Positions 17,798 to 47,722 of a DNA stretch of 49,953 nucleotides are shown piece after piece. Origin of the DNA: Yoonia sp. (GTDB taxonomy: Bacteria; Pseudomonadota; Alphaproteobacteria; Rhodobacterales; Rhodobacteraceae). Position 1 is the first letter of the stretch. The number at the start of each line of letters is the position of its first letter. The notes beneath the pieces are model-generated. The model saw only the letters and a list, made by a program, of their open reading frames with translations, was not told the origin of the DNA and searched no databases. The DNA lies in NCBI GenBank assembly GCA_029252195.1, contig JAQXBV010000128.1:1-49953 (forward strand). The letters run 5' to 3'. The translations under genes were made by a program, and so were the position numbers.

Positions 17798-19102
17798 TTA
17801 CTCTGCCGCCACGGCACCCGGATTATTTGGGTGGGTCGTCCAGTTGGCGTATGTGTCCGATACAACCTTGCCCGTGCGCGGATCAACTTCGCCTGCTTTC
17901 ATCGGTTCCATTGTGATGCAATTCTCAACGGGACAGACATCAACACAAAGGTTGCAGGCCACACATTCGGAATCAATCACTTCGAACACGCGGTCAGCGG
18001 ACATCGCAATCGCCTGATGCGATGTGTCTTCGCAGGCGGCATAGCAGCGGCCGCATTTGATACAATCGTCCTGCGAAATCTTGGCTTTGGCGACGTAATT
18101 CAAGTTCAGATACTGCCAGTCTGTGACATTCGGAACAGCCATGCCGACAAATTCGGAGGTGTTCTCGAACCCCTTTTCATCCATCCACTGGGACAGACCC
18201 GAGATCATTTCTTGAACGATCTTAAAGCCATAGGTCATCGCAGCCGTGCAGACCTGCACATTGCCGCAACCCAGCGCCATAAACTCCGCCGCGTCGCGCC
18301 ATGTCGTCACGCCGCCGATGCCCGAAATGGGCAGGCCATGTGTCTCGGGATGGCGGGCAATCTCTGACACCATCGACATTGCAATCGGCTTCACCGCAGG
18401 GCCGCAATAGCCACCATGCGATCCTTTGCCGTCAATCGAGGGCTCGGGAGACATCGTGTCTAAATTGACGGAAGTGATCGAATTGATCGTATTAATCAGG
18501 CTCACCGCATCTGCCCCGCCGCGCTTCGCCGCCGCCGCAGGTTTGCGCACATCAGTGATATTCGGGGTCAGTTTGACGATCACGGGCTTGTCGTAATATT
18601 GCTTGCACCAGCGGGTCACCATCTCGATATATTCCGGCACCTGGCCCACAGCAGCACCCATGCCGCGCTCTGACATCCCATGTGGACATCCAAAGTTAAG
18701 CTCGATCCCATCGGCCCCCGTGGCAGCCACTTTCGGCAGGATATCTTTCCAAGCCTGCTCCTCGCACGGCACCATAATCGACACTATTATGGCACGATCA
18801 GGGTAATCCGCCTTCACGCGGGTGATCTCTTCGAGGTTTACCTCCAGCGGCCGGTCGGTAATCAGCTCAATGTTATTAAGCCCCATCAAGCGCCGATCCG
18901 CCCCGTAAATCGCACCGTATCGCGGGCCATTCACATTGACGACAGGCGGGCCTTCCATGCCCAAGGTCTTCCAGACGACTCCGCCCCAACCTGCTTCGAA
19001 CGCGCGGCGCACGTTGTATTCCTTGTCAGTCGGCGGCGCAGAGGCGAGCCAGAACGGGTTCGGGCTTTTGATCCCAAGAAAATGCGTAGTTAGATCAGCC
19101 AT
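17798..19102 (-). CDS. preA: NAD-dependent dihydropyrimidine dehydrogenase, PreA subunit
   Basis: A 434-residue FMN and iron-sulfur protein that reduces uracil and thymine to the dihydro forms. Residues 1 to about 310 form a dihydroorotate-dehydrogenase-like barrel (FWLASAPPTDKEYN, ELNFGCPHGMSERGMG, LTPNITDV, SGIGGVTTW). The C-terminus has two 4Fe-4S motifs, CIKCGRCYAAC and CVACNLCVDVCPVENC. The start lies one base after the preT stop with a GGAGG site inside preT. With PreT it forms the heteromer that starts reductive pyrimidine degradation. The products feed the dihydropyrimidinase encoded about 4 kb away. Confidence 0.94.
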   Translation of the reverse strand: MADLTTHFLGIKSPNPFWLASAPPTDKEYNVRRAFEAGWGGVVWKTLGMEGPPVVNVNGPRYGAIYGADRRLMGLNNIELITDRPLEVNLEEITRVKADYPDRAIIVSIMVPCEEQAWKDILPKVAATGADGIELNFGCPHGMSERGMGAAVGQVPEYIEMVTRWCKQYYDKPVIVKLTPNITDVRKPAAAAKRGGADAVSLINTINSITSVNLDTMSPEPSIDGKGSHGGYCGPAVKPIAMSMVSEIARHPETHGLPISGIGGVTTWRDAAEFMALGCGNVQVCTAAMTYGFKIVQEMISGLSQWMDEKGFENTSEFVGMAVPNVTDWQYLNLNYVAKAKISQDDCIKCGRCYAACEDTSHQAIAMSADRVFEVIDSECVACNLCVDVCPVENCITMEPMKAGEVDPRTGKVVSDTYANWTTHPNNPGAVAAE

Positions 19103-19103
19103 C

Positions 19104-20402
19104 TCACTTGCCTCCCATCAGACTTGCATGAATATCCATTGCGGCATCGCGGCCTTCTGCCACTGCCGTCACGGTCAGATCATCACCGCCACTGGCACAA
19201 TCGCCGCCAGCCCATACGCCCGCACGACTCGTGCGGCCATGTGCGTCCACGGCAATCTTGCGACCGTCCAGTTTCAATCCGGCATCTGTTACCAACGTCT
19301 GGCCAATCGCCTTAAACACCTGATCGGCAGGAATGCGCACCGTCTCACCAGAGCCATCCGTGTATGCAAGCTCAATCTCACCCTGATGGATCGCCGAAGG
19401 CTGCACGTTGAACATCAGCTGCACACCTTTCGAGGCCGCTAAATCCTGCTCATATGGGCTGGCACTCATGCAATCCCGACCCCGTCGGTAAGCAATTGTC
19501 ACGTTTCGCGCGCCAAGAAGTTTCGATTGAACGGCAGCGTCGACGGCAGTCATACCGCCGCCGATCACCACCACATCGCGACCGACGGGGAGAGACGCCA
19601 GATCGCTCGTCTGTCGCAGATCTGCGATGAAATCGACAGCGTCACTCACACCGCTTTCGTTTTCACCATCAACCGACAGACTATTCACACCACCCAAACC
19701 AACACCGAGAAAGACCGCATCGTATTGCGCGCTCAGATCATCAAGCGAGAGGTCAGCGCCCAGCGCCTTTCCTGCCTCAATCGTGATCCCACCAATGCCC
19801 AAGAGCCAGTCAACCTCGCGCGCTGCAAAATCGTTCGTCGATTTATACGACGCGATCCCAAATTCGTTGAGACCGCCAGCCTTCGTGCGGGCGTCAAAAA
19901 TAGTCACGTCAGAGCCTAACATGGCCAAACGGTGCCCCGCAGCAAGACCAGCAGGCCCAGCACCGACAACCGCTATCCGTTTGCCTGTCGAGGCCGCGCG
20001 CTGGTAAGGATGCGCCTGTTTAGCCATCACGGTATCAGTCGCGTGCCGCTGCAATCGGCCAATCTCAACGGGTTTTCCCTCGGCCGTTTCCCGCACACAG
20101 GCCTGTTCGCACAATGTCTCGGTCGGACAAACGCGGGCGCACATGCCGCCCAGAATGTTCTGATCAAAGATCGTCTTGGCCGCTGCTTCCGACGTACCCG
20201 TAGCGATCTGGCGAATGAAAAGCGGGATATCAATCGACGTCGGACAGGCAGTCACACAGGGTGCATCATAACAAAAGTAACAGCGGTCAGCAGCCACAGT
20301 CGCTTCATGCTCGCCAAGCGGCGCATGTAAATCCGCAAAGTTGGTTTTCAAAACGTCACCGTTCAATCGCGCGGCAACAATTCCAGAAGTCGTGTCAGGC
20401 AT
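19104..20402 (-). CDS. preT: NAD-dependent dihydropyrimidine dehydrogenase, PreT subunit (flavoprotein)
   Basis: A 432-residue GltD-like oxidoreductase that passes electrons from NADH to PreA. The N-terminal cysteine-rich domain (CYFCYDAPCVTACPTSIDIP, then CARVCPTETLCEQAC) binds iron-sulfur clusters. The FAD fold follows at RIAVVGAGPAGLAAGHRLA, and a second nucleotide-binding fold at VVVIGGGMTAVDAAVQ. ATG at 20402 (MPDTTSGIVAARL) follows CAGGGGTGCCGA. An in-frame start 27 codons upstream gives an unrelated leader. It is the first gene of the preT-preA pair. Two palindromic sequences lie just upstream and may be operators. Confidence 0.92.
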   Translation of the reverse strand: MPDTTSGIVAARLNGDVLKTNFADLHAPLGEHEATVAADRCYFCYDAPCVTACPTSIDIPLFIRQIATGTSEAAAKTIFDQNILGGMCARVCPTETLCEQACVRETAEGKPVEIGRLQRHATDTVMAKQAHPYQRAASTGKRIAVVGAGPAGLAAGHRLAMLGSDVTIFDARTKAGGLNEFGIASYKSTNDFAAREVDWLLGIGGITIEAGKALGADLSLDDLSAQYDAVFLGVGLGGVNSLSVDGENESGVSDAVDFIADLRQTSDLASLPVGRDVVVIGGGMTAVDAAVQSKLLGARNVTIAYRRGRDCMSASPYEQDLAASKGVQLMFNVQPSAIHQGEIELAYTDGSGETVRIPADQVFKAIGQTLVTDAGLKLDGRKIAVDAHGRTSRAGVWAGGDCASGGDDLTVTAVAEGRDAAMDIHASLMGGK

Positions 20403-20415
20403 TCGGCACCCCTGT

Positions 20416-20470
20416 CTATCAAATTGGATAGCCCCAGCCTGACACAACTTTATTTTTATCAAACGGTAAA
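20416..20470. promoter_or_regulatory. Candidate operator pair upstream of preT
   Basis: CTATCAAATTGGATAG (20416-20431) and TTTATCAAACGGTAAA (20455-20470) are imperfect inverted repeats sharing TATCAAA on the plus strand, with centres about 39 bases apart, nearly four helical turns. The second, read on the minus strand as TTTACCGTTTGATAAA, agrees with the RutR consensus at about ten of fourteen positions. They may be weak RutR sites or sites for another regulator. Confidence 0.35.
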
Positions 20471-20527
20471 CTTTTAGATTCACAGAAAAACTAAAGAATC
20501 CAGTAAAACCGTCAAAAATCTGCCTAT

Positions 20528-39170: not shown

Positions 39171-40091
39171 CTACATCCCGCATAGCACACGTGCCTCCTT
39201 GCCCTTGATGACATGGCGGGCACACCGACGATCCCAACCACTCCCCATGTCCGATAGCTCCGGAAACAGGGTGCTTAACTCGGCGCGCAAATCAGCGTCA
39301 CCATCAAGAATAGTTTCCCCAGGATGAAAACTCTCACTCGGGATTCCGTTGCTAAAGACAATTTCATGTTGGTCAAAAAGTAGGTGATGGTAGCTGACCT
39401 CGCGCGTTGACATCACATGGATCATGTCACCATTTACAAGGTGTTTGGCCGCTACCAAGACCTCATCCTCACCAAACAAGAGTTCTGCCCGCCATCCTGT
39501 AATCAACATTCGATGTTGCGGAGACACCAGTAATTCAACCTCATTTCTCAAGGCATTTGGCGCAAAGCGTATCGGCGCAAAGTCACCTTGCCCCGCAACA
39601 ACGCGACATCCAGTCCAACGCACCTCTTGTGGCCCATTGTCGAGCGTCATAACCAGATCGCCGACGTCCAGGTCTTCAACGGCGCGCGGTCCTTCGTGCG
39701 TATCAATAAGCGTCCCAGCGACAAAACACGGTGGGCCCAAGCTCCCGACCAAAAGCGGCCCTTACGTATTCACATAGGTGGAACTGTTAAGAGTCGCTAC
39801 TTTTAAAACCTGCCCGTCGGTTGGCGCAAACACACGCCCGCCACCCTGCAGATAGAAGGTCGTCCCGACATAGGTCACCGCGCTACCATCAGGCAGCGGC
39901 ACCTTGACTGTATCACCAGGCCACGAATTGACGATATCAATGCCATTGATTGAATCGCCACTGAAGCGATCAATATCCCCATCATTGTTTTGATCGGTGA
40001 GCGTATAGCTGACAGACGTCATCGTCGACCCCACCGAAGGTGGGTTCGCGGGGTCCATCAAATAGAACTGATCGACATAACTTGTCGGCAC
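39171..40091 (-). pseudogene. Hint-domain protein with a premature in-frame TAA at 39762-39764
   Basis: From GTG 40091 the first 109 codons encode MPTSYVDQFYLMDPANPP and the NDGDIDRFSGDSINGIDI region typical of Rhodobacteraceae Hint proteins, ending STYVNT before a TAA. The same frame then continues as GPLLVGSLGPPCFVAGTLID, with the Hint cysteine, VEDLDVGDLVMT and VSPQHRMLI, to the stop at 39171. Relatives read straight through this point with glutamine (NTQGP), so one C-to-T change (CAA to TAA) explains it. An intact product would be 306 residues. Hint domains self-cleave in inteins and hedgehog proteins. The role of these bacterial ones is unknown. Confidence 0.8.
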
Positions 40092-43200: not shown

Positions 43201-44761
43201 GCTTGGACAGGACGGCACTCGGCGTGTCGTCACCCATAGAGGCGATCATCTCTTTGCCGTCTTCGGCCATCGGGGCGAGAACCTGCTCTAATTCTTCGAT
43301 GGAATAGCCCGCCGCGACCTGTCGCTTGCGCAATTCCGCACCCGTGAACACAGCCTTTTCATCAACGTCGCGCATCATGTCATTTAGATCGACAACCTTT
43401 TCGACCCACTCACCAAACGGTTGCGCAGCGGCCAGTTTGTCTTTCAACTCTTCATCGCGGTACAAACGACCCTCGGCCATATCGACAGCAATCATCTGCC
43501 CCGGACCAAGCGCGCCTTTTTCAACAACAGTCGCTTCATCTACAGGTACCATGCCAACCTCGGACCCAGCCACCAAAAGGCCGTCACCTGTCACGACATA
43601 ACGCAGCGGGCGCAGACCGTTACGGTCGAGACCACCACAGACCCAGCGACCATCTGTCATCGCAAGCGCAGCAGGACCATCCCACGGCTCCATCACGGCG
43701 TTGCAATAGCCATACATGTCTTGCCAAGACTGCTTCATTTCAACCGCTTGCTGCGACCACGCCTCTGGCACAAGCATCGTTTTCGCCATTGGCGCATTGC
43801 GGCCAGCACGGACAAGAACTTCAAAAACAGAGTCTAATGCTGACGAATCCGAGGCATTCGCAGGAATGATCGGCTTGATATCTTCGGCACGATCCCCAAA
43901 GGCAGACGAGGCCATGCGGATCTCGTGAGAGCGCATCCAGTTGACGTTGCCCTTGAGCGTGTTGATCTCGCCGTTGTGGGCCAACATGCGGAACGGCTGG
44001 GCCAAATGCCACTGCGGGAAGGTGTTGGTGGAATAGCGCTGGTGGTAAATCGCAAAGGCGCTCTCAAACCGCTCGTCCATCAGGTCAGGATAAAACTCTG
44101 CTACCTGTTCGGCCAGCATCATGCCCTTATAAATGATCGACCGGCAAGACAGCGAACAGATATAGAATCCGTTGACCATCGCAGTTGCTTTTTCGATGCG
44201 ACGACGAATGATATACAGCTCGCGTTCGAACTTCTCGTCGTCAATGCCCTTCTCGTTGCGGATCAAAATCTGTTCGATTTCGGGGCGTGTCGCGTTTGCC
44301 TTATCGCCCAGAACAGCATTGTTCACAGGCACATGGCGCCAGCCGTAAATGTAGTGGCCCATGCGCAGCACTTCGGTCTCGACAATCGTGCGGCAACGCT
44401 CTTGCGCGCTAAAATCCGTGCGCGGCAGGAATACCTGACCAACGGCAATGAGCTTGTCCATCGCAGGCTCGTGGCCTGTGCGGCGCACCTGATCATAAAA
44501 GAAGGGAGCAGGGATTTGCACATGGATCCCCGCGCCATCACCCGTCTTGCCGTCGGCATCGACCGCGCCACGGTGCCAAACTGCCTTCAGCGCGTTAATG
44601 CCTTTTTCCACAACCGAACGAGACGCTTTTCCCTCGATGGAAACCACAAGGCCAACACCGCAAGAGCTATGCTCATCTTCGGCAGCATAAAGGCCGTTTT
44701 TAGCCATCCACTTGCGCTTTGCCTCTTCGGCCTCAACCCAATTTTGATCAAATGTTGTCAT
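40235..44761 (-). CDS. gltB: Glutamate synthase (NADPH) large subunit
   Basis: A 1508-residue enzyme making glutamate from 2-oxoglutarate and glutamine. A short propeptide is removed before C34 (EHSSCGVGLVVSIEG), the N-terminal nucleophile of the glutaminase domain. The central and FMN domains follow (GGEDPAHFNPEPNGDNPSAK, SGHNGGTGASPGTSIKYAG). The 3Fe-4S motif is CIMVRQCQSNTCPVGVC, and the C-terminal beta-helix begins near AFAAPGLKLEVSG. Length matches the bacterial family. Its start lies 14 bases inside the upstream secreted-protein gene, an unusual coupling. Operon order is gltD, two secreted genes, gltB, then terminator. Confidence 0.97.
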   Translation of the reverse strand: MTTFDQNWVEAEEAKRKWMAKNGLYAAEDEHSSCGVGLVVSIEGKASRSVVEKGINALKAVWHRGAVDADGKTGDGAGIHVQIPAPFFYDQVRRTGHEPAMDKLIAVGQVFLPRTDFSAQERCRTIVETEVLRMGHYIYGWRHVPVNNAVLGDKANATRPEIEQILIRNEKGIDDEKFERELYIIRRRIEKATAMVNGFYICSLSCRSIIYKGMMLAEQVAEFYPDLMDERFESAFAIYHQRYSTNTFPQWHLAQPFRMLAHNGEINTLKGNVNWMRSHEIRMASSAFGDRAEDIKPIIPANASDSSALDSVFEVLVRAGRNAPMAKTMLVPEAWSQQAVEMKQSWQDMYGYCNAVMEPWDGPAALAMTDGRWVCGGLDRNGLRPLRYVVTGDGLLVAGSEVGMVPVDEATVVEKGALGPGQMIAVDMAEGRLYRDEELKDKLAAAQPFGEWVEKVVDLNDMMRDVDEKAVFTGAELRKRQVAAGYSIEELEQVLAPMAEDGKEMIASMGDDTPSAVLSKQYRPLSHFFRQNFSQVTNPPIDSLRESRVMSLKTRFGNLKNVLDEDGSQTEILVLESPFVANAEFDEMMRHFGETVTVIDCTFAKGTDSMRKGLERIRAEAADAVSSGAGHIVLTDQHQSEERIGMPMILATSAVHSGLTAKGLRTFCSLNVRSAECVDPHYFAVLVGCGATTVNAYLAQDSIANRVERGLIEGTLLNAVHRYRDAVNAGLLKIMSKMGISVLSSYRGGLNFEAVGLSRAMVAEYFPGMQSRISGIGTTGIQAKTEEVHARGWQGQTDVLPVGGFYKSRRSGEKHAWEAQTMHMLQAACTNASYGMWKQYSKSMQANPPIHLRDLLAIKPLGTAVPIEEVESITAIRKRFVTPGMSLGALSPEAHKTLNVAMNRIGAKSDSGEGGEDPAHFNPEPNGDNPSAKIKQVASGRFGVTAEYLNACEELEIKVAQGAKPGEGGQLPGMKVTDLIARLRHSTKGVTLISPPPHHDIYSIEDLAQLIYDLKQINPRCKVTVKLVASSGVGTIAAGVAKAKADVILISGHNGGTGASPGTSIKYAGLPWEMGLTEAHQVLAMNNLRDRITLRTDGGLRTGRDIVMAAMLGAEEYGIGTAALIAMGCIMVRQCQSNTCPVGVCTQDEALRKKFTGNADKVVNLITFYATEVREILASIGARSLDDVIGRADLLTQVSRGSAHLDDLDLNPLLITVDGSKSIVYNRDKPRNPVDDTLDAQIVQDAARFLNDGEKMQLDYAVQNTLRTIGTRTSSHIVQKFGMRNSLQHDHLTVKLRGSAGQSLGAFAAPGLKLEVSGDANDYVGKGLSGGLIVVRPPMSSPLVASENTIIGNTVLYGATAGYLFAAGRAGERFAVRNSGASVVIEGCGTNGCEYMTGGVAVILGSIGANFGAGMTGGMAYLYDPNGMTKDLINMETLVTCPVTVAHWEEQLLSLVKRHHVESGSVKAAAILQDWDTEKANFVQVCPKEMLVHLKHPLTLEQAAIPAE

Positions 44762-45452
44762 TGGTAAACTCCTGCAATTCGGGGGCTGCTGACATCACAA
44801 CGCCGCAGCCATACTTGGGTTTAGAAGAAAGAAAGCCAGCCTCACCGGGGAAAATGAATTCCTTTGGTGAGTTGTCTCTCTCGAAGGTTTCGGTCGAATT
44901 GGTAATCGTGGCTGTGCCTGAAAGGAACAAGCGCCACTCACGGTTGATAAACTCATAGCCCTCAGATTGCCAAAGGGTCATGCCGTCAGGGGACATCGCG
45001 GTGATCTCGAACTTGGTTTCGTCCAGCGTAACACCATCAATTGTTACCGTGCGGCCCGTCAAAATGTCTGTCCCGACATAACGGGTTATGCCGATCTCAG
45101 GAGACGTGGTTTGAAAATCGTAGGCGTCGACCTTATTCGCGATAAGGTCAGAAAAAGATGCGGGTTCTGCAGGGTTAGACACTAATCTCTCAGTATGCCC
45201 ACTCAACGGATGATAACTCTCGATCCACTGGGTCTCGGCGTCGATCTGGCCCATAAATGTCATACGATCCTCGTCGAGAGAGACGCGACGCTGCGTGCCT
45301 GCCAGATCGCCATTACACCTGAAATGATGATCAACAGAGCAACTGGTCTCTTGCACGGTCAGATAAGCGGTGCACCCCGCAGGCAAGCTAAATGGCGTCT
45401 GCGCCATCGCGCCGACAGGAGCCAGCGTCGCTATGATCGCAAGGGTTTTCAT
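44748..45452 (-). CDS. Uncharacterised secreted protein (paralogue B) between gltD and gltB
   Basis: A 234-residue exported protein with signal peptide MKTLAIIATLAPVGAMAQ, then FSLPAGCTAYLTVQETSCSV. Cysteines 27, 38, 46 and 216 align with those of the neighbouring paralogue, suggesting two disulfides in the periplasm. The C-terminal EFIFPGEAGFLSSKPKYGCG is the best shared block. ATG 45452 overlaps the previous stop by four bases, and the gltB start lies 14 bases inside its 3' end. No known domain recognised. Tight coupling suggests a job tied to glutamate synthase expression or nitrogen supply, but that is only positional inference. Confidence 0.82.
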   Translation of the reverse strand: MKTLAIIATLAPVGAMAQTPFSLPAGCTAYLTVQETSCSVDHHFRCNGDLAGTQRRVSLDEDRMTFMGQIDAETQWIESYHPLSGHTERLVSNPAEPASFSDLIANKVDAYDFQTTSPEIGITRYVGTDILTGRTVTIDGVTLDETKFEITAMSPDGMTLWQSEGYEFINREWRLFLSGTATITNSTETFERDNSPKEFIFPGEAGFLSSKPKYGCGVVMSAAPELQEFTNDNI

Positions 45453-46117
45453 CCTCCGAAACTCGACTCGATGACACCGCATTCAAACTTCGGCGTGGCC
45501 GCAAAGAACCCCGCCTCGCCCGGATAGACAAATTCTACAGGGGACAGGTCAACCATCTGATCCGCGTCGTCCCCTGCCGGGCTTACGCCGAAAAAGAACA
45601 TCCGGTGCTTGGCGCTAACAAACTGATTGCCGATGCCACCGTCAATCTCTGTGCCATCCTCGGCCAAAGTACGGCCTTCAAACTCGGTCTGAAAAAGCGG
45701 TTCTCCGTCGATTTCAATTTCAAGGCCGGTCAAGGCATCGAAGCCAACATTGCGCTCCGTGCGCCCTTCTTTCTGGATCACGAACTCGAACGTATCGATT
45801 CCGTTTTCAAGGAGTTCGGTCATTGATGAAGGATCGGGCGCGGGGACAATCAGGTTTTCATTTCCCGTGACCTTGAACGATTCGAGCCATTGGAATTCAC
45901 GATCAACGTGTTGCACCGAATAGGGGCCGTTTTCAGTGATCAGTGCGATCCATTTGTCGCCTTCGGGATCGGCAGCGCATTGCCAAACATTCACCAACAG
46001 ACAGCCGCGTTGCTGGACGGTCAAAACGCCTTCACAACCATCAGGCACGGGGAAGGACTGCGCTTGCGCCGCAAGCGGGAGGAGGCCGAAAAAGGCAGCG
46101 ATCAGATGTTTATACAT
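45449..46117 (-). CDS. Uncharacterised secreted protein (paralogue A) between gltD and gltB
   Basis: A 222-residue exported protein. The signal peptide is MYKHLIAAFFGLLPLAAQAQ, followed by SFPVPDGCEGVLTVQQRGC. Cysteines at 28, 39, 47 and 213 match those of paralogue B, as do WLESF/WIESY, FDALTGLEIEIDG/TDILTGRTVTIDG and PGEAGF near the C-terminus. The two look like an old tandem duplication. GGAGAGTGAAGA precedes the ATG, and a 15-bp palindrome sits just upstream of it. It overlaps paralogue B by four bases. Function unknown. Confidence 0.82.
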   Translation of the reverse strand: MYKHLIAAFFGLLPLAAQAQSFPVPDGCEGVLTVQQRGCLLVNVWQCAADPEGDKWIALITENGPYSVQHVDREFQWLESFKVTGNENLIVPAPDPSSMTELLENGIDTFEFVIQKEGRTERNVGFDALTGLEIEIDGEPLFQTEFEGRTLAEDGTEIDGGIGNQFVSAKHRMFFFGVSPAGDDADQMVDLSPVEFVYPGEAGFFAATPKFECGVIESSFGG

Positions 46118-46131
46118 TCTTCACTCTCCAT

Positions 46132-46146
46132 GTCAGCGCGGCTGAC
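46132..46146. promoter_or_regulatory. 15-bp palindrome upstream of the first secreted gene
   Basis: GTCAGCGCGGCTGAC lies 15 bases before the paralogue A start and 36 bases past the gltD stop. It has the same GTCAGY-nnn-RCTGAC form as two sites upstream of gltD. It could be an operator for an internal promoter or, less likely, an RNA hairpin over the ribosome site. Confidence 0.6.
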
Positions 46147-46182
46147 CAATTGCGGGTCCGTTCCCTTTGCTTGCGAAACGGC

Positions 46183-47616
46183 TTACTCTGCGGCGACGGC
46201 TTCGACCTGATTGAGGTAAGTCATGATCGCCTCAGCAGCGTCACGACCATCTTTGATCGCCCAAACAACCAAAGAGGCACCGCGGACGATATCACCAGCG
46301 GCAAACACGCCCTCAAGGCTGGTTTGACCCGTCGTAAATTCGGCCTTGATCGTGCCCCAGCGGGTCACTTCCAAGCCCTCGACACCCCAGAGTGCAGGCA
46401 GGTCTTCTGGCTCAAAACCAAGGGCCTTGATCACAAGATCAGCAGGTTCGACATAGTCGGCACCCACAATCAGTTCCGGCATCTGACGACCTGTCGCATC
46501 AGGCGCACCAAGGCGCATTTTTTGCACGTTCACGCCCGTCACCGCATCGCCCTCAAATCCAGCAGGTGCAGAGAGCCAGACGAACTCGACACCTTCTTCT
46601 TCGGCGTTTTGCACTTCGCGTTGCGAACCGGGCATGTTGTTGCGGTCGCGGCGATACAGACACTTCACGCTTCCCGCACCCTGACGGATCGCTGTGCGTA
46701 CACAGTCCATCGCCGTATCACCGCCACCGATGACGACAACGCGCTTGCCCACGGCATTCAATTCACCGCTCTCGTATTCCTCGACAAGGTCGCCAAAGGA
46801 TTTGCGGTTGCTTGCCGTAAGGTAGTCGATGGCGCGGACGATCCCGTCAGCCTCATTGCCCTCAAGCTCCAAATCGCGTGTTTTATAGACGCCTGTCGCG
46901 ATTAACAGCGCATCATGCTTGCCGCGAATGGCATCAAACGTCAGGTCTTCGCCGACATTACAGTTCAGGACAAACTCAACGCCGCCGTCTTCAAGCTGCG
47001 CCATACGCTGCATGACGATGTCTTTCTCAAGCTTGAAACCAGGGATGCCATAGGTCAGCAAACCACCCCCGCGATCATAACGATCGTAGACGGTCACTTG
47101 CACACCCTGACGGCGCAGCATGTCCGCCGCAGCAAGGCCACCCGGACCCGCGCCAATGATGCCCACGCTCTCGGTACGTTCGGCATGTGGGCGGATCGGC
47201 TTGACCCAGCCTTCTTGGAAAGCGGTGTCGGTAATATATTTTTCAACAGCGCCAATCGTCACAGTACCGTGGCCAGATTGCTCGATCACACAGTTGCCTT
47301 CGCACAGGCGGTCCTGGGGGCAAATGCGACCGCAAATCTCTGGGAAAGTATTGGTCGCCTGTGAAATCTCATAGGCTTCTTCGAGACGACCTTCCGCCGT
47401 CAAACGGAGCCAATCAGGAATGTTATTTTGCAGCGGGCAATGCGACTGGCAATAGGGAACCCCGCACTGACTGCAGCGGCTCGCTTGATCGGCGGCCTTG
47501 TCGGTCGCGTACTGCGCATAAATCTCATCAAAGTCTTTGTTGCGCAGGTTCGGCACACGCTTTTCGGGCATGTCACGCTCTACAGTCACAAACTTTAACA
47601 TTTTCTGGCCAGCCAT
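46183..47616 (-). CDS. gltD: Glutamate synthase (NADPH) small subunit
   Basis: A 477-residue flavoprotein passing electrons from NADPH to GltB. N-terminal cysteine motifs CSQCGVPYCQSHCPLQNNIP and CGRICPQDRLCEGNCV bind 4Fe-4S clusters. GIIGAGPGGLAAADMLRRQG binds FAD, and VVVIGGGDTAMDCVRTAIRQ with YRRDRNNMPGSQRE binds NADPH. Length is typical. It is first in the operon. Its upstream region carries two perfect 15-bp palindromes and a third related site. Two secreted genes separate it from gltB, whereas the subunit genes are usually adjacent. Confidence 0.96.
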   Translation of the reverse strand: MAGQKMLKFVTVERDMPEKRVPNLRNKDFDEIYAQYATDKAADQASRCSQCGVPYCQSHCPLQNNIPDWLRLTAEGRLEEAYEISQATNTFPEICGRICPQDRLCEGNCVIEQSGHGTVTIGAVEKYITDTAFQEGWVKPIRPHAERTESVGIIGAGPGGLAAADMLRRQGVQVTVYDRYDRGGGLLTYGIPGFKLEKDIVMQRMAQLEDGGVEFVLNCNVGEDLTFDAIRGKHDALLIATGVYKTRDLELEGNEADGIVRAIDYLTASNRKSFGDLVEEYESGELNAVGKRVVVIGGGDTAMDCVRTAIRQGAGSVKCLYRRDRNNMPGSQREVQNAEEEGVEFVWLSAPAGFEGDAVTGVNVQKMRLGAPDATGRQMPELIVGADYVEPADLVIKALGFEPEDLPALWGVEGLEVTRWGTIKAEFTTGQTSLEGVFAAGDIVRGASLVVWAIKDGRDAAEAIMTYLNQVEAVAAE

Positions 47617-47676: not shown

Positions 47677-47722
47677 GTCAGCAGTGCTGACCTAAATGAC
47701 AGTTTTTGTCAGTGCGACTGAC
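47677..47722. promoter_or_regulatory. Two 15-bp palindromes in the gltD promoter region
   Basis: GTCAGCAGTGCTGAC (47677-47691) and GTCAGTGCGACTGAC (47708-47722) are perfect inverted repeats around three- or one-base centres. Their centres are 31 bases apart, about three helical turns, and both are followed by CTA. A third related half, TAGGTCAGTA, lies at 47748-47757. They are 61-142 bases upstream of gltD. They look like a cooperative operator for a dimeric regulator, whose identity is unknown. Confidence 0.65.

Follow-up and report, generated by a model that had tools for sequence, protein, structure and literature searches.

Few enzymes of nitrogen assimilation are as well studied as glutamate synthase (GOGAT), and its operon is usually regarded as containing the genes of its subunits only. 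In a stretch of 49,953 nucleotides (nt) from the alphaproteobacterium Yoonia sp. (Rhodobacteraceae; contig JAQXBV010000128.1), analysed as a whole and called the window here, two additional open reading frames (ORFs), A and B, are found between the small subunit gene gltD and the large subunit gene gltB; all four genes lie on the reverse strand, in the order gltD, ORF A, ORF B, gltB. The two encoded proteins are paralogous, with 33% of 219 aligned residues identical (E 7e-40); they share four cysteines and give no Pfam or NCBIfam match above cut-off; A overlaps B by 4 nt and B overlaps gltB by 14 nt. These features had been described in an earlier, sequence-only reading of the locus and proved correct, and the export that it had claimed for both proteins is suggested by their signal-peptide-like N-termini.

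The protein family and its place in the operon

The distribution of the family was followed by profile search in Rhodobacteraceae, taken in the broad sense (295 genomes, nearly one per genus). Matches were present in 108/295 genomes and 187/295 gave none; excluding the genome of the window, 107/294 sampled genera, about a third, carry the family. At strict thresholds, gltB was detected in 285/295 genomes and gltD in 274/295. A class-wide sample of 240 genomes gave matches in two Rhodobacteraceae genomes only, one of them that of the window, and no match outside Rhodobacteraceae.

The 107 other match-bearing genomes provided 109 loci, two genomes being split between contigs. The family adjoins gltD and/or gltB in 104/107: 92 genomes have both flanks on the locus, with every member enclosed by gltD and gltB and sharing their strand; in 12 one flank is visible, the other being lost to a contig end or to the 1.5-kb flank limit. 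The place of the family is constant also in a scan of named genomes, which found 110 and from which the best 80 loci were kept (Tabrizicola, Gemmobacter, Rhodobacter, Cereibacter, Fuscovulum and others): in 77 of these loci the family is enclosed by the two glt genes, whereas in 3 the gltD side alone can be seen. Scattering of the genes away from gltBD, the result that the sequence-only reading had named as refuting it, was thus not found, apart from three genomes (G085, G152 and G194) where neither flank is present.

G152 and G194 hold distant relatives away from the glt locus, which share the N-terminal cysteine pattern and a C-terminal PGE motif. In G085 (L076 40-2316), two open copies of the family stand directly before an mtgA-like gene; by eye, the next genes are presumably mtgA-like, glutathione-transferase-like and queG-like, as beyond gltB in the window. 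Neither gltB (at E 1e-10) nor gltD (at 1e-100) finds a match in this assembly; if it is right, the pair has outlived the enzyme. An extra copy in the window's own genome (C90, E 0.02) was rejected as apparently spurious, its best frame reaching E 2.3 with the profile. The distant relatives off gltBD, with the same cysteine-rich start, are located at L103 2481-3164 and L092 1990-3123, one of them, by eye, beside an agmatinase-like gene.

Protein searches at E up to 1e-3 returned 169 homologues for A, 445 for B and 1382 for the member from Cereibacter azotoformans, the best 120 matches of each search being listed; among the matches listed, the closest homologues of A come from Yoonia and Loktanella. 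A 77-row alignment has ten invariant columns, four of which are cysteines (C28, C39, C47 and C213 in A), and this invariance indicates that the likeness of the family is no chance effect. Two sets of loci were used for the counts, a first set (the loci of the 107 match-bearing genomes) and a second set (the best 80 named-genome loci); the pooled set, in which genomes are partly duplicated, has 220 members, 216 of adequate length and 194 parsed, the remainder being dropped for an unrecognised first cysteine or an unusable start codon. Exactly four cysteines with 0/11/19 spacing are found in 110/114 parsed members of the first set (135 in all); in the pooled set, 189/194 have exactly four cysteines and 5/194 have five. 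When the N-terminus was scored by a simple hydrophobicity script rule, not SignalP, 189/194 pooled members showed a hydrophobic, signal-peptide-like segment and 188 an AxA-like site, the features of a Sec signal, while a lipobox-like pattern is present in 2/194; the proteins are therefore apparently exported.

No Pfam-A family was returned for A or B at E up to 1, and NCBIfam at E up to 1 gave none for A and one sub-threshold match for B (E 0.15). When 77 members were scanned with Pfam at E up to 0.1, any one family matched at most two members (best E 0.0078); the best match of a PDB sequence-profile search, at E 0.14, was not meaningful, and a viral fold search reached E 0.012, with nothing at 0.001. 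A known domain with an unrelated function, which would also have told against the earlier reading, was therefore not found by these four kinds of search. The label DUF3298, which UniRef gives to a few homologues, finds no support in our own Pfam scans. The family diverges fast: mean identity is 36%, vs 81% for the first 240 residues of gltB (78 single-copy loci), and its co-inheritance with gltB is only weakly seen.

The number of copies per locus ranges from 1 to 4, with a single copy in 79/92 two-flank loci, and the idea of a dedicated pair finds no support. A tree of 134 members, built by a quick method, contains an A-type clade of 13 members (Shimodaira-Hasegawa-like approximate likelihood ratio test 98), defined by the common ancestor of A-type members chosen from nearest-neighbour lists. 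A lies on the gltD side of the other copies in 11 loci with gltB-side copies, the window included. In three loci a very divergent copy is still nearer gltD, among them L013, which has no copy behind A, and in L012 the A-type copy is alone. A and B derive from an old duplication, with the order gltD-A-B-gltB kept.

The gltD-gltB gap as a gene slot

Elsewhere among the alphaproteobacterial families, gltD and gltB share a strand, with gltD first, in 28/28 loci (the best of 42 gltD-matching genomes among 86 searched, two Rhodobacteraceae genomes being left out); the gap measures up to 150 nt in 22 of them and is longer in 6, one with a GFA gene. In Rhodobacteraceae, 132 loci with both flanks were compared. 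The family is present in 92, alone in 56, with GFA in 33 and with a hydrolase-like gene in 3; 30 loci hold other genes only, and 10 gaps are empty. The 40 family-free loci were picked by gap length (30 long, 10 short), hence their contents are not frequencies: apart from the empty gaps, they comprise 23 with GFA only, 3 with a hydrolase-like gene only, 1 with both, 2 with a Metal_resist-like gene and GFA, and 1 with a Metal_resist-like gene only. What stands on firm ground is the existence of the protein family, together with its position and the slot.

GFA proteins (PF04828, confirmed on two members) resemble the family in their place in the slot, their strand and their tandem copying (up to four copies, in L033); differently from the family, they are unrelated in sequence (hhalign 0.08%), carry zinc-type cysteine motifs and, by eye, show no apparent signal peptide. 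The hydrolase-like slot protein has no Pfam match (one member scanned). The long family-free gaps of L033-L052 and L137-L146 hold one to four GFA copies, hydrolase-like or Metal_resist-like proteins. In the pooled set, 17 slot stretches longer than 350 nt have no assignment, such as L067 261-2469 (2.2 kb) and L030 667-1492 (0.8 kb), counted on the gltD strand.

The unrelated occupants of the slot, the empty gaps and the G085 pair beside no detectable GOGAT point to co-expression and not to a part in the enzyme; selection would then act on expression together with the glt operon and not on a role in the GOGAT reaction.

Overlaps and a candidate operator at the locus

The features of the locus are collected in Table 1. 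The start of ORF B was set at the ATG at 45452, the mechanical ORF, from 45482, being 10 codons longer.

Table 1. Features of the glt locus in the window
Feature	Position	Strand	Evidence
gltD, glutamate synthase small subunit, 477 aa	46183..47616	-	TIGR01318 537.7 bits (cut-off 483), PF14691
ORF A, 222 aa, paralogue next to gltD, four cysteines, apparently exported	45449..46117	-	
ORF B, 234 aa, paralogue next to gltB, four cysteines, apparently exported	44748..45452	-	
gltB, glutamate synthase large subunit, 1508 aa	40235..44761	-	NF008730 1702 bits, PF00310, PF01645, PF04898, PF01493
ATGA, overlap of A stop and B start, 4 nt	45449..45452	-	read from sequence
Overlap of B end and gltB start, 14 nt, stop supplied by gltB codons	44748..44761	-	sequence
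Palindrome GTCAGYNNNRCTGAC, candidate operator, between gltD and ORF A	46132..46146	.	perfect match
Palindrome GTCAGYNNNRCTGAC, candidate operator, upstream of gltD	47677..47691	.	perfect match
Second palindrome GTCAGYNNNRCTGAC upstream of gltD	47708..47722	.	perfect match

An AGGAG belonging to gltB itself lies within the tail of B, 7 nt upstream of the gltB ATG. Where a family gene is last before gltB, it overlaps gltB in 28/64 loci of the first set, by 14 nt in 13 and by 4 nt in 11; in the pooled set the exact 14-nt overlap is also formed by hydrolase-like (4/11) and GFA (2/86) genes. This length recurs because the first codons of gltB (ATGAC...T(A/T)TGA) give a stop in that frame; the presence of the overlap alone is therefore no evidence for tuning of translation.

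The palindrome GTCAGYNNNRCTGAC occurs in the window at 4 sites with up to 1 mismatch, vs 0.19 expected; three are perfect, and the pair upstream of gltD is 31 nt apart. Of the four perfect sites in the whole genome, three belong to the glt locus. In the first set, the palindrome is found up to 300 nt upstream of gltD in 45/76 loci with up to 1 mismatch (reversed pattern 0/76) and in 70/76 with up to 2 mismatches (reversed 12/76); the second set gave 51/74, vs 6/74 reversed, with up to 1 mismatch. Its start mostly lies 76 to 85 nt before gltD in the pooled set, and its repeats are often 41 or 74 nt apart, distances near whole helical turns that would suit a DNA-binding protein. In the 28 loci of other alphaproteobacterial families it is rarer, with 2/28 at up to 1 mismatch and 9/28, vs 2 reversed, at up to 2.

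A copy of the palindrome with up to 1 mismatch also stands between gltD and the first-placed family gene in 23/94 loci (9 perfect), vs 1/94 for the reversed pattern; it is present before the first-placed GFA gene in 4/28 (0 perfect) and in 1/10 empty gaps, so that the gap copy cannot be called peculiar to the family. Perfect sites are few across 13 genomes of the genus, with 1 to 6 in each, vs 0 to 3 for the reversed control. Seventeen site loci were read by eye: 2 are at gltD and most others seem to lie inside genes, and no regulator was found from these loci. Two of the sites are also terminator-like, a class no commoner in the region than in shuffles, and the palindrome may have a role as an RNA hairpin. 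Being shared, this candidate offers a handle on a regulator of nitrogen assimilation in Rhodobacteraceae.

Elsewhere in the window, a short ORF between gltB and an mtgA-like gene (39171-39752) has, by eye, the look of a Hint domain. At 17798-20483 a second gltD-like flavoprotein gene accompanies a dihydropyrimidine-dehydrogenase-like gene, and the two apparently form a PreT/PreA-type pair.

Predicted fold and possible roles

AlphaFold models of ORF A (predicted local distance difference test 91.3, predicted template modelling score 0.83) and ORF B (90.8 and 0.84, respectively) confidently predict beta-barrel or half-barrel folds, near YmcC-like exported proteins. YmcC/GfcB-like exported lipoproteins (2in5, 3fzx, 4fvs) are recurring structural neighbours of both models, and resemble A and B in apparent export and comparable size; unlike them, A and B are not in a capsule operon, and lipobox-like patterns are rare in the family. 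The LolA/LolB/RseB-type periplasmic proteins and EipB (PF08904, DUF1849) are also counted among the closest known systems. Structure comparisons of the models gave no significant match to known binding-protein folds. A sequence relation to YjbF (PF11102), represented by a profile built on YjbF proteins of the window's genus (15 sequences, 11 genomes), was rejected, its hhalign probability of 0.22% falling among unrelated controls (0.08 to 0.24%). EipB gave 0.75%, no sign of a relation, in what was a poor test, its profile coming from 5/6 loci, one of which (L284) was apparently in the wrong frame.

The reading that we tentatively prefer, at somewhat less than an even chance, is that A and B are envelope proteins co-expressed with GOGAT and acting apart from the enzyme reaction. 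In this view a lineage-specific gene slot within the GOGAT operon carries A and B as its cargo, and the two would probably be co-transcribed with gltD and gltB under control of the operon operator and sometimes of an operator copy of their own. After export, the four conserved cysteines would probably form two disulfides in a small YmcC/LolA-like beta-barrel or half-barrel; judging from the fold, such proteins would probably act as binders or carriers of a ligand, either apolar or from the envelope, and would adjust their service to the cell envelope to the capacity for nitrogen assimilation. The sequence-only reading had proposed an undescribed role for a translationally coupled periplasmic pair: what stands of it is an undescribed, apparently exported, gltBD-linked family; the dedicated pair and the tuning of gltB are not supported.

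A different explanation, unlikely in our judgement yet the best of the rivals, is that the proteins are pure passengers of a permissive, well-expressed gap in which genes become established and are duplicated, with a function biologically unconnected to nitrogen. The unrelated families that fill the slot, alone or mixed with this one, are in its favour, together with the many sampled genomes in which the family was not found and with its fast evolution. However, passengers are expected to settle elsewhere too, and off the locus just two distant relatives (G152, G194) were met in 107 genomes at E up to 1e-3; moreover, the operator-like palindrome before the first-placed family gene far exceeds its reversed control.

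A direct connection with nitrogen can be discussed from data on Cereibacter (Rhodobacter) sphaeroides, R. sphaeroides below. C. azotoformans, a close relative of this species, has the order gltD-family-GFA-gltB (L207), and the family protein of C. sphaeroides is 91% identical to its member. In R. sphaeroides RSP_1146 (gltB) and RSP_1149 (gltD) are GOGAT, according to PMC3849096, and, as in the window, two genes (RSP_1147 and RSP_1148) lie between them; unlike in the window, GFA probably takes the second place in the gap, where the window has a further family copy. Judged by gene order and numbering, rather than by their own sequences, RSP_1148 is probably the family member and RSP_1147 the GFA protein. 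Both are reported as essential on succinate-ammonium minimal medium by transposon sequencing (Tn-seq) with Tn5 (PMC5513736), which for the gap genes offers Tn5 data alone and no protein work; beyond this paper, literature searches on the arrangement, the genes and the regulator found no publication on the gap genes.

This essentiality and the near-strict linkage to gltBD would fit periplasmic sensing or binding of nitrogen compounds or amino acids feeding glutamate synthesis, which is the view of the sequence-only reading and partly that of the Tn-seq authors. Yet Tn5 insertions at these positions, upstream of gltB, may be polar, and the term 'polar' is absent from the main text of PMC5513736; no known binding-protein fold was significantly matched, and gltB is far more widespread than the family. 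We regard this explanation as rather improbable. Even more doubtful is a small outer-membrane barrel or barrel-assembly-like protein in place of a soluble ligand binder; the ORF B model is equally near porins. That the purpose of the overlapping ORFs is to couple and restrict translation of gltB, as the window's two overlaps and the 28 overlapped loci might suggest, is very improbable and was rejected as the main role, given that gltB keeps its own AGGAG, the 14-nt stop comes from gltB codons and is common to unrelated slot genes, the protein itself is conserved in its four cysteines and fold, and empty gaps exist (10 loci, picked for short gaps).

Returning to envelope proteins co-expressed with GOGAT, a more specific proposal can be made, which we consider a long shot: Rhodobacteraceae-specific, exported, disulfide-bonded barrel proteins under the glt operator could link envelope state with the glutamine/glutamate pool, for instance as carriers or sensors of amino-acid-containing membrane lipids. 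Such lipids are described for this group in PMC9938194; their link with the gltBD-linked family is speculation. If this more specific proposal is true, the GOGAT operon would be a combined nitrogen-assimilation and envelope module. Roughly one in three of the genera sampled thus has, at an almost absolute place in its GOGAT operon, an undescribed protein family that is apparently exported, and the apparent R. sphaeroides counterparts are reported as essential on minimal medium in the published Tn-seq study.

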